NCBI GenBank assembly: GCA_028279545.1
Contig: JANQNN010000018.1
Span: 1 to 52,542 of the forward strand
Reading direction: 5' to 3'
Source of the DNA: Nitrosopumilaceae archaeon
GTDB lineage: Archaea > Thermoproteota > Nitrososphaeria > Nitrososphaerales > Nitrosopumilaceae
DNA: 52,542 bases
The notes beneath the pieces were generated by a model that ran no database searches, had not been told where the DNA came from, and was given only the letters and a program-made list of their open reading frames with translations. The translations under genes and the position numbers were made by a program. Below, piece by piece: positions 20,836 through 24,686 of this stretch. Position 1 is the stretch's first letter. Each line of letters opens with the position of its first letter.

Positions 20836-22092
20836 TTAAATATTTTCTACTAGTTCTTTTGCTTTATCAAGAGAAATGTTATTTTCATTGATCATTTTTT
20901 GAACAATTTCATCTATTTGATCATTTTTTGCTCCAGCTGCAGATGCTAAATTCCGAGCATGTAATCTCATGTGTCCTTTTTGAATTCCTTCAGTAGCTAA
21001 CGCTCTAATTGCACTATAATTTTGTGCCAATCCCACAGCAGTCATTATTGACGCTAGTTCTTGAGCCGAGGAAACTCCCAGAATTTTATTACAAAGTTTT
21101 GCAATAGGATGAACATTTGCAATTCCTCCTACTATTCCTACTGCTAATGGTAATTCCAAATACCCAATTAAATTTCCATTTTCATCTTTTGTCCATTTAC
21201 TAAGAGATCTGTATTTTCCAGATCTAGCTGCATAAGCATTTGCTGAAGCTTCGATTGCTCTACTATCTTGGCCAGTTGCATTTGCAACTGCAATAGTTCC
21301 ATTCATTATTCCTTTATTGTGGGTGACTGCTCTAAAAATATCATTATCTGCAAAATGATAGGCCAAAAGAATATTATCAACTATTTTATCCCCGCCCACT
21401 GACTGTTTATCAAATACTGCTGTAGCCCTTGTAATTCTTCTTGTAGAATAATTTGATAAAATTCTAAGAAGTGATTTTCCTCCTATTATTTTTTCTAAAA
21501 AAGGAGATACTGCTTCACACATTGTATTTGTAATGTTAGCTCCCATAGCATCACCAACATCAATCAACAGTTCTACGATTAACATTTTTCCAAGGGGGGT
21601 ATCGATTTCTTTACATGAAATTTCCTTTGCTCCTTTGCCTATTTTTGATAATGTATTACTCTTTGAATTTGCGATAGACAGGATTTCATTTGCTGATTTT
21701 TGGATTTTTGGAATTGCAGTGGAAATATCCACATCTAGCATTTGAATTTGTCCAATGCTGTAAGATTCTTCTGATTCCACCTTAAACCCACCCAGAACTC
21801 TAGCAATTTTTGCTCCTTTTGATGCAGCTGCAATAACAGAGGGTTCTTCTATTACCATTGGAATAACATAATCTTTACCATTTATCTTAAAGTTCGTTCC
21901 TAAACCAAGTGGTAACGAAAAGGTACCAATTGCATTTTCAACCATCTTATCTGCTTTTTCATATGAAATTCCCCCATCAGGATTTTCTAATAATTTTATT
22001 TCCTCATCAGACAAGTCCGAAAAAAATTTTATAAAATCTAAACGCTCCTTCCTTGATTTTTCAAAAAATTTTGAAATAGACGAGTCTTTCAT
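20836..22092 (-). CDS. Hydroxymethylglutaryl-CoA reductase, class II-like
   Basis: 418 residues. The order of motifs is that of HMG-CoA reductase: ENAIGTFSLPLGLGTNF (about 51-67), the catalytic Glu in MVIEEPSVIAAASKGAKIAR, GDAMGANITNTMCEAV with the catalytic Asp/Asn region, DKQSVGGDKI and NATGQDSRAIEASANAYA. The EEPSVIAAAS and LPLGLGTNF wording is that of the class II (Pseudomonas mevalonii-like) form rather than the class I form with ENVIGY/PVGVAGP. It reduces HMG-CoA to mevalonate for archaeal isoprenoid lipids. The start codon overlaps the stop of the upstream sugar-dehydrogenase homologue by 4 nt. Confidence 0.9.
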   Translation of the reverse strand: MKDSSISKFFEKSRKERLDFIKFFSDLSDEEIKLLENPDGGISYEKADKMVENAIGTFSLPLGLGTNFKINGKDYVIPMVIEEPSVIAAASKGAKIARVLGGFKVESEESYSIGQIQMLDVDISTAIPKIQKSANEILSIANSKSNTLSKIGKGAKEISCKEIDTPLGKMLIVELLIDVGDAMGANITNTMCEAVSPFLEKIIGGKSLLRILSNYSTRRITRATAVFDKQSVGGDKIVDNILLAYHFADNDIFRAVTHNKGIMNGTIAVANATGQDSRAIEASANAYAARSGKYRSLSKWTKDENGNLIGYLELPLAVGIVGGIANVHPIAKLCNKILGVSSAQELASIMTAVGLAQNYSAIRALATEGIQKGHMRLHARNLASAAGAKNDQIDEIVQKMINENNISLDKAKELVENI

Positions 22093-23183
22093 TTTAATAT
22101 CCTAATTAATTTATCATCTTTCCCATCAGGAAAACCTTTTCCATCAGTATTTGAAGTAATAATATATAGACTACCATCATTTCCCTGCCCCACGTCTCGA
22201 ACTCGTCCCACTCCACTTAAAATACTCTTTTGGGATTTTAGTCCTTCATCTAGATCTAGTTGATACAAATTTGAGGCTCTAAGAGAGGCCATAATAAACG
22301 CATGATCAAGCTTTACTGAATTTCCTTTGTAAAAGAGAATTCCTCCAGGTTCTATTCCTGGATCATAACACATTACAGCACCTTCAAATTTTTCATTGCC
22401 AATGCATTCTCGTTCGGGCCAACCAAAATTTTTTCCAGGCTTGATTAAATTGATTTCATCATTTTGTTCAGGTCCAAGATCAACAGCATACATGTTTCCC
22501 ATCGAATCCCATGAAATTCCTTGGGGATTTCTAAATCCAAGTGAGAATATTGGTGAGTTTGAAAATGGATTATCTTCAGGAATCGTTCCATCGGAATTTA
22601 ATCTCAATATTTTACCTGATAAGGAATTTTTATCCTGTGGGAGATGAGAGGCATCAGATACTGTTCCAGTTCCAACATATAATTTTCCATCTGGGCCAAA
22701 TTTCAAAAATCCACCATTTGTAAATACAGAACCTGGAATTTTATCTAAAATAGTTTCAGCATCTTCTAGTTTGTTATTTGATTCAGTAATTTTGATAATT
22801 TTATTCCATAATTTTTCATCGTTCTTGTAAGTTAAAAAAACATAGATAAAGTGATTCTCCTTAAAATTTGGATGAGTGGTAATTCCTAATAGACCTCCAT
22901 CAAAAACATTAGCAGAGCGAAATGTAGCTAATGGTTCATCTAAAAGTTCTTCTTGAAAAATAACTCTGATTGTACCTTTTTTTTCAGTAATGAAAATTTT
23001 TTCATCTGTTATTGCAATGGATCTAGGATTTTCAAGATTTTCTGCTAAAATTTTAATTGATTTATTTTCAAAATTTTCTGTTGGTAATTCTGGAAGAGGA
23101 ATTGGATCATCAGGTGAAGTTAAAACAAAAAATGAAAATGCTATTGCACCAGCAATTCCAATAATTCTTAGCCTCTTATCCAT
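22089..23183 (-). CDS. PQQ-type glucose/sorbosone dehydrogenase homologue, secreted or membrane-anchored
   Basis: 364 residues. A hydrophobic N-terminal segment (about residues 6-24) acts as signal or anchor. The rest is a six-bladed beta-propeller of the soluble aldose sugar dehydrogenase family: NPRSIAI, LLGITTHPNFKENHFIYVFL, GGFLKFGPDGKLYVGTG, SGKILRLNSDGTIPEDNPF, LGFRNPQGISWD, DLGPEQNDEINLI, and NFGWPE. Family members oxidise sugars with PQQ and calcium, though many archaeal homologues have untested activity. It is translationally coupled (4-nt overlap) to the HMG-CoA reductase gene, with no obvious metabolic link. Confidence 0.85.
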   Translation of the reverse strand: MDKRLRIIGIAGAIAFSFFVLTSPDDPIPLPELPTENFENKSIKILAENLENPRSIAITDEKIFITEKKGTIRVIFQEELLDEPLATFRSANVFDGGLLGITTHPNFKENHFIYVFLTYKNDEKLWNKIIKITESNNKLEDAETILDKIPGSVFTNGGFLKFGPDGKLYVGTGTVSDASHLPQDKNSLSGKILRLNSDGTIPEDNPFSNSPIFSLGFRNPQGISWDSMGNMYAVDLGPEQNDEINLIKPGKNFGWPERECIGNEKFEGAVMCYDPGIEPGGILFYKGNSVKLDHAFIMASLRASNLYQLDLDEGLKSQKSILSGVGRVRDVGQGNDGSLYIITSNTDGKGFPDGKDDKLIRILK

Positions 23184-23237
23184 AAAAAAATAATTTTTTC
23201 AAATCCTATTAATTACTTTCAAAAATTTGATAACGCG

Positions 23238-23243
23238 TATATA
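23238..23243 (+). promoter_or_regulatory. TATA box of the initiator tRNA gene
   Basis: TATATA sits 24-29 nt upstream of the tRNA 5' end at 23267, the expected archaeal TATA position if transcription starts at or near the mature 5' end. The flanking GC-containing island (aacgcg) stands out in an AT-rich intergenic region. Confidence 0.6.
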
Positions 23244-23266
23244 CCGCTCCTTCTCACTTACGAATC

Positions 23267-23356
23267 AGCGGGGTGGGGAAGTCAGACTATTTAGGGCTAG
23301 GTCATCCCGGCGGGCTCATAACCCGCAAATCAGTAGTTCAAATCTACTCCCCGCTA
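23267..23356 (+). tRNA. Initiator tRNA-Met (CAU) with putative D-loop intron
   Basis: Acceptor stem AGCGGGG (23267-23273) pairs with CCCCGCT (23349-23355), discriminator A at 23356, no encoded CCA. D stem GGGA/TCCC (23276-23279 / 23305-23308); anticodon stem GCGGG/CCCGC with loop CTCATAA and anticodon CAT at 23317-23319; variable loop AAATC; T arm AGTAG-TTCAAAT-CTACT. The A1:U72 pair and three consecutive G:C pairs next to the anticodon loop are initiator hallmarks, so this is not elongator Met or tRNA-Ile2. The D-loop as encoded is 25 nt, far too long; removing 23286-23300 restores a normal 10-nt loop with G18-G19. The mature tRNA would be 75 nt before CCA addition. Confidence 0.92.
23286..23300 (+). 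other. Putative 15-nt non-canonical tRNA intron in the D-loop
   Basis: The inserted sequence is ACTATTTAGGGCTAG. A relaxed bulge-helix-bulge can be drawn: exon AGTC (23280-23283) pairs with intron GGCT (23295-23298; A-T, G-C, T-G, C-G), flanked by three-base bulges AGA (23284-23286) and AGG (23299-23301), with a small CT/AG intron hairpin. Cutting after the second base of each bulge gives the D-loop AGTCAGGTCA with the conserved A14, G15, G18-G19 and A21. Because both bulges begin AG, the exact junction is ambiguous by up to two bases. The exon-side helix is separated from the second bulge by three unpaired bases, so the motif is relaxed. Confidence 0.7.
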
Positions 23357-23357
23357 C

Positions 23358-24686
23358 TTAATTCTTATAAATCGAAAACCAAGAACTAGATTCGTCAAAA
23401 TAGGATTTTTTATTCAATTTTCCCAATCTAATCAACGGTCTACTTAGATGCCTATGGGCTCCAACATCGGGAAGGTATATTTTTTTTTCAATTTTTCTGG
23501 GAATTTCGATGTTGTTTTTGTTTATTGAGCGACTTCCACATTTTACGCATTGAAATCCTTGTTTTGTTCCCTTTGATTTCATAGATTTTTTGCATCTGTT
23601 ACAGATTGGATTGGATTTAATAATTTGTTTTTTTATGCTAATTATCTCTATAAATTCGATATTAAGAACTCTAGGAAAATTTTTGGAAGCCTTTCTTATT
23701 CCCCCACCTACAGATATTTTATCTTCTTTTATTAGGCCCAAAGCAACATGGGTTATTCCTGTTTCCTTGTACACTGCACAGTTAATTTTCTCTCCATTAC
23801 AATCCAAAGAAAAAAACACATGTCCACCTTTCGTTATTTGTGGTTTATCTAAAACCGATCCTGAAACTATTCCCGAAGCGAATGGTTTCATTGTTGATTT
23901 AGTAAAGGTATTTTTTAAATGGTCATTTGTTCCTTGATTAGATTTAAAAATTAAATGACCTGCTAATTTCTCCTCTGTTTCTAAAATTTTTGTGGCATTC
24001 AATAAAACATCAATTTTTTCACCTCTTACCCCATAAAATACAGGATCGGGACTATGGGGCATTATCAAAACCTTGGATTTTTTATTGTCATAGCTATTAA
24101 AGGTGTAAGGAAATGTTCTTTTTTGCATTGCTTTAACACTTTGATGAGAAATTTTTCTTTGTGTTCCAAACTTTGACGACTTTCTGTAACACAACAATTC
24201 AAAAGTGTGATCTTGAAATTTGTATCCAATTGCTCCTATAGCCCCGATTAATCCCTGTCCATTTCCAATGTAAAATATTTCCAAATTATTTTTTTTAGCA
24301 AAAGTTTTTGCTTGTTCTCTATTAATTAATTGCCACAAAGCCAATTCACTAAATTGTGTAAAGCTAGATGGAATATCATGCTGTTCATAAAAAACTAAAC
24401 CAGGGTTGGCTCCATTCAAAGTATCAGAATATTTTGAAACAAATTTTTTGATTTTATTTTTTATTTTTGAGGGATTTTTGGTTTTAATTTTGAGAGAAAC
24501 AGCTCCATTTCCCCTAGTTTTCCATGGGATGTTTGGATTAAACCTAATTAATCTAGGGAAATCAAGAAATTCTGATTTTTGTTTTTTTAGATAATTTACT
24601 ATCTTATAGGCTAAAAAAGTGGTACACATTCCCTTGGGGGAATCTGTATCATCAAAGCCAATATGCAAAGTACAGTAAGTGTCCAA
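23358..24686 (-). CDS. tiaS: tRNA(Ile2) 2-agmatinylcytidine synthetase
   Basis: 442 residues. The N-terminus LHIGFDDTDSPKGMCTTFLA is the TiaS signature (Asp-rich kinase-like motif); then IRFNPNIPWKTRGNGAVS, GLIGAIGAIGY, MPHSPDPVFYGVRGE, an OB-fold region (GSVLDKPQITKGGHVFFSL) and a C-terminal zinc ribbon with CNRCKK and CVKCGS. TiaS attaches agmatine to C34 of tRNA-Ile(CAU), so that it reads AUA rather than AUG. The stop codon lies 1 nt from the 3' end of the convergent CAU initiator tRNA gene, which must itself escape this modification. Confidence 0.94.
   Translation of the reverse strand: MDTYCTLHIGFDDTDSPKGMCTTFLAYKIVNYLKKQKSEFLDFPRLIRFNPNIPWKTRGNGAVSLKIKTKNPSKIKNKIKKFVSKYSDTLNGANPGLVFYEQHDIPSSFTQFSELALWQLINREQAKTFAKKNNLEIFYIGNGQGLIGAIGAIGYKFQDHTFELLCYRKSSKFGTQRKISHQSVKAMQKRTFPYTFNSYDNKKSKVLIMPHSPDPVFYGVRGEKIDVLLNATKILETEEKLAGHLIFKSNQGTNDHLKNTFTKSTMKPFASGIVSGSVLDKPQITKGGHVFFSLDCNGEKINCAVYKETGITHVALGLIKEDKISVGGGIRKASKNFPRVLNIEFIEIISIKKQIIKSNPICNRCKKSMKSKGTKQGFQCVKCGSRSINKNNIEIPRKIEKKIYLPDVGAHRHLSRPLIRLGKLNKKSYFDESSSWFSIYKN

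Follow-up and report, generated by a model that had tools for sequence, protein, structure and literature searches.

A probable 15-nt bulge-helix-bulge intron at position 18/19 of the sole initiator tRNA gene of a Nitrosopumilaceae archaeon

Described systems and the initiator locus

A separate thaumarchaeal intron model was trained for the tRNAscan-SE 2.0 survey and, in the passages drawn on here, 107 noncanonical introns are reported (PMC8450103), so that thaumarchaeal tRNA introns outside the usual site, to which the original prediction for this locus had appealed, are published. These introns are like the one described below in phylum, bulge-helix-bulge (BHB) motif type and noncanonical position; however, the same passages name no initiator D-loop case. 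BHB introns of the D-arm are known from tRNA-Glu of Sulfolobus tokodaii, for which EndA cut synthetic precursors at the predicted sites (PMC4307357), but these belong to elongator tRNAs of Crenarchaeota and not to an initiator. The initiator tRNA is split in Nanoarchaeum equitans and permuted in Thermofilum pendens, where it is single-copy, and both also need EndA-type processing, making initiation splicing-dependent (PMC3218864, PMC4390854). However, the split lies at 37/38 and the permutation at 59/60, whereas the gene analysed here is contiguous, with a predicted intron at 18/19. Noncanonical thaumarchaeal BHB introns, D-arm introns and initiators dependent on splicing or permutation are thereby known already. 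A literature search of incomplete coverage, carried out without tRNA databases, returned no paper naming an initiator 18/19 intron, which may already be catalogued.

The window, i.e. the whole 52,542-nt stretch of DNA that was analysed, contains a 90-nt initiator tRNA(CAU) gene, identified by direct reading of the sequence (Table 1) and laid out as AGCGGGG-TG-GGGA-AGTCAGACTATTTAGGGCTAGGTCA-TCCC-G-GCGGGCTCATAACCCGC-AAATC-AGTAGTTCAAATCTACT-CCCCGCT-A. The acceptor stem (AGCGGGG/CCCCGCT) is paired at 7/7 positions, the D-stem is formed by GGGA/TCCC, the anticodon arm by GCGGG-CTCATAA-CCCGC and the T-arm by AGTAG/CTACT, all arms being intact save for the enlarged D-loop. The pair A1:U72 and three G:C pairs at 29-31:39-41, which are customary marks of initiator tRNAs, are present together with the CAU anticodon. 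The D-loop measures 25 nt, as originally described, and deletion of 23286-23300 restores A14 G15 U16 C17 A17a G18 G19 U20 C20a A21, the spliced product being a 75-nt cloverleaf of normal archaeal initiator form that folds well (z -3.4). ARAGORN run on the window called no tRNA at this locus, and the Rfam match covers 23292-23348 only, with a score of 31.7 bits that is one of the two lowest among the 42 tRNA matches of the genome; simple tRNA finders miss the initiator gene or misplace its bounds. The gene lying one base from it encodes TiaS, which modifies the CAU anticodon of tRNA-Ile2, and this adjacency is kept in relatives.

Table 1. Features of the initiator tRNA locus, in window coordinates
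Feature	Position	Strand	Basis or remark
Initiator tRNA(CAU) gene, 90-nt precursor, CCA not encoded	23267..23356	+	Sequence, Rfam, folding, relatives
5' exon, positions 1-18	23267..23285	+	Agrees with intronless orthologues
Predicted 15-nt intron ACTATTTAGGGCTAG, junction 18/19	23286..23300	+	Relatives and structure comparison
3' exon, positions 19-73	23301..23356	+	Agrees with intronless relatives
Anticodon CAU	23317..23319	+	Sequence
Central BHB helix, exon side AGTC	23280..23283	+	Three inner pairs in 93/93 distinct relatives
Central BHB helix, intron side GGCT	23295..23298	+	Comparison of relatives
5' bulge AG|A, expected cut follows G	23284..23286	+	AG invariant, third base A/T, 93/93
3' bulge AG|G, expected cut precedes last G	23299..23301	+	A and last G invariant; middle A/G/T/C
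Intron-internal hairpin h' CT-ATTT-AG	23287..23294	+	Covarying outer pairs
TATA-box-like element GCGTATATAC	23235..23244	+	About 26 nt upstream of the tRNA; kept in relatives
TiaS (tRNA-Ile2 agmatidine synthetase) gene	23358..24686	-	Tail-to-tail with the tRNA; synteny marker
Glucose/sorbosone dehydrogenase-family (GSDH) gene	22089..23183	-	Divergent neighbour of the tRNA; synteny marker

The bulge-helix-bulge and the splice register

Structure comparison was carried out on 98 representative insert-bearing sequences listed by hand, two loci of family f8 among them, of which 93 were distinct. In one genome the D-loop insert at this site is long (G320:C51:64636-64691); it departs from the conserved BHB pattern and was excluded from the structure counts for this mismatch. 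The original prediction had drawn a BHB in which exon AGTC pairs with intron GGCT between bulges starting with AG. In the window this helix is paired at 4/4 positions, one of them G.U, with 3-nt bulges AGA and AGG, and its three inner pairs are kept throughout the relatives (C17-G in 93/93, G15-C/U in 93/93). Position 16 is engaged in C-G in 42, U-G in 36 and U-A in 15 of the 93, C.A never being found, and its association with its partner gives a Fisher p of 8e-5 with kinship ignored. The outermost pair is more variable, A-U in 64/93 relatives and A.A, A.C or A.G in 29/93, and the bulges follow the patterns AG|W and A-N|G in 93/93, the first intron base being A or T. The outer pairs of the intron-internal hairpin h' number 154 bp in 73 distinct interiors as against 40.5 +/- 6.6 in shuffled controls, 154 being reached in 0/5000 shuffles; the relatives are not independent, so that both statistics, shuffle and Fisher, make the result look more significant than it is. 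The second pair of h' is exchanged among relatives between UA, CG, AU, UG and GC, and the shortest inserts (11 nt, genus g5) are without the inner hairpin.

The window precursor has a fold of lower energy than the BHB (-32.2 vs -30.2 to -31.4 kcal/mol), and folding energy was dropped as evidence because single-precursor folding did not favour the BHB. The case for the predicted BHB is built on comparison of relatives, not on thermodynamics. The locus presents what is looked for in a BHB tRNA intron, namely a central helix of about 4 bp, two 3-nt bulges and a normal tRNA on excision. The motif is nevertheless relaxed and not of the textbook form, h' having 2 bp and UCA being placed between the 3' bulge and the D-stem.

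The splice register can be read from the 3' bulge, whose final G is preceded by A, T or C in 51/93 relatives. With a non-G at this place, G18 is available from the 5' exon only, which fixes the 18/19 register provided that G18 and G19 are kept; relatives with an AA|G, AT|G or AC|G bulge consequently demand the register 23286-23300 that had been proposed. Registers 23284-23298 and 23285-23299 were rejected, as they would give an identical product in the window but a non-G at position 18 in those 51 relatives. At the predicted 18/19 junction the intron parts the invariant G18 from G19.

The spliced 75-mer was also searched against 60 relatives. Uninterrupted full-length tRNA matches were obtained in genomes G027 (97%) and G020 (93%), most others being interrupted, and the D-loops of these two, GTCAGGTCA and GCCAGGTCA respectively, are identical to the joined exons. 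The G027 gene is flanked by GSDH and TiaS (L042), as in the window, and on the GSDH side the same neighbour was seen in G020 (L043), so that the insert-less relative suggested as a check on the junction exists at the same locus.

A single gene, its processing enzymes and competing readings

The genome, that of an archaeon of the ammonia-oxidiser type, comprises 1.92 Mb in 57 contigs and is 99% complete. A second initiator gene, which the original prediction had named as evidence against it, was looked for with the anticodon arm GGGCTCATAACCC, and no second copy was found in this genome at one mismatch or fewer; the GGG/CCC anticodon stem is missing from both remaining CAU tRNAs, L013 and L031, of which L031 bears an intron. 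The broad-specificity endonuclease that had been postulated has its counterpart in two encoded EndA paralogues, L093 (178 aa) and L094 (187 aa), and RtcB is encoded as well. L093 resembles the catalytic subunits of crenarchaeal enzymes (3p1z_B, E 2e-40; closest 3p1z_B/3ajv_B and 2cv8), its Y, H and K positions looking intact on inspection of the alignment by eye, and L094 is a second, divergent paralogue. The two together suggest an (alpha-beta)2 assembly, i.e. an EndA of the two-subunit type that is associated with noncanonical introns, and a review assigns thaumarchaeotal EndA to the alpha2-beta2 type (PMC4090602).

Judged from sequence comparison, this is almost certainly the sole initiator gene of the cell, carrying a 15-nt BHB intron at 18/19 that is removed by splicing. 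What the genomes present is one gene, an exact predicted exon junction, a conserved and covarying putative BHB and the encoded enzymes, and the original prediction is supported at every step that could be tested. Transcription probably proceeds from the TATA element at 23238-23243, and pairing of exon AGTC with intron GGCT in the precursor would leave AGA and AGG as 3-nt bulges. By analogy with known archaeal tRNA splicing, (alpha-beta)2 EndA would cleave each bulge between its second and third bases and RtcB would ligate G18 to G19, freeing the 15-mer. Translation initiation would then depend on splicing.

Retention of the insert, with a mature tRNA of enlarged D-loop that still initiates, is very unlikely. 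The acceptor, anticodon and T arms could fold even in the unspliced RNA, but the insert varies in length and sequence while the pairs and bulges of the splice motif are kept, exact intronless orthologues exist, and retention would leave G18 and G19, both required for the contact between D-loop and T-loop, 15 nt apart. It is less probable still that this copy has decayed or been disrupted, initiation being served by another tRNA. The Rfam score and the silence of ARAGORN could be read in this way, but every arm is intact, the TATA element is kept in relatives and the same structure is found in nine genomes of the window's genus, and against a substitute stand the failed search for another such anticodon arm and the differing stems of L013 and L031. 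An assembly error or recent random insertion, conceivable in a draft of 57 contigs, is the least probable reading of all and is refuted by recurrence, since like inserts of conserved structure lie at the same place in many independent assemblies, single-contig genomes included.

Distribution, history and meaning of the intron

A D-arm pattern was applied to 250 genomes of the window's family and the gene was recognised in 204, of which 130 carry the insert (11-18 nt) and 74 do not, as counted by hand. The 74 insert-less genomes are confined to two genera (g19, 22/22; g12, 52/76), the insert being absent throughout the one, a small-genome genus, and its presence changing repeatedly within the other. 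Every other matched genus of the family carries it, including that of the window (9/9). At least six further families of the order (f5, f8, f10, f12, f16 and f17) have inserts at the same site, reaching 26 nt, and the pattern search saw none at the site in other families such as f2, f3, f7, f9 and f13. Genera named for insert-bearing loci are Nitrosopumilus, Nitrosarchaeum, Nitrosotalea, Nitrosotenuis, Nitrosocosmicus and Cenarchaeum. The inserts vary in sequence between relatives with the BHB kept, and a D-loop intron in the initiator gene is not unusual in this group.

Further insertions were observed alongside. Many initiator genes of relatives have a second intron at the canonical anticodon-loop site, genes with further introns including L088 (G021), L089 (G045), L066, L070, L071 and others. 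T-loop inserts of about 20 nt are present in L086, L088, L089 and L069, the last from the window's genus, and appear to be a third intron in L088 and L089. The D-loop insert is missing from L084 and L085 (G053, G037) and L082 (G038), which have insertions in the anticodon loop and within or adjoining the 5' strand of the acceptor stem. Across the order, the initiator gene seems to be a hotspot for introns. Elsewhere in the window's genome, a tRNA with a CCT anticodon loop (L041, G000:C22:1-160) has an apparent D-arm insert of about 20 nt, is missed by ARAGORN and scores 30.1 bits with Rfam, and a tRNA-Val(CAC) (L032, G000:C37:27879-27971) has an insert near the variable loop that is likely another noncanonical intron.

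A TiaS and GSDH tree of 57 loci calls for six or more changes of intron presence, mostly within g12; this tree represents two neighbour genes and not genomes, has several weak branches and some long rows, and its change count does not separate gain from loss. The identical predicted junction across families would fit an old intron that was exactly removed time and again; a possible alternative history is that introns were gained more than once at a favoured site. It seems rather doubtful that the 18/19 intron is ancient in Nitrososphaerales, with most lineages actively maintaining it, for instance as a checkpoint on the supply of initiator, and some marine lineages having deleted it precisely on several occasions, as opposed to a neutral relic that comes and goes.

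What is added here to the described systems is depth, with one junction kept across much of an order, the intron being absent throughout one genus and changing repeatedly within another. The natural variants, comprising introns of 11-26 nt, helices with and without the outer pair and intronless sisters, form a ready series of EndA substrates and a test bed for the gain and loss of tRNA introns. The sole tRNA that starts translation would routinely be made via a splicing step, at a junction that splits the invariant G18-G19 pair, throughout a large group of archaea of environmental importance.
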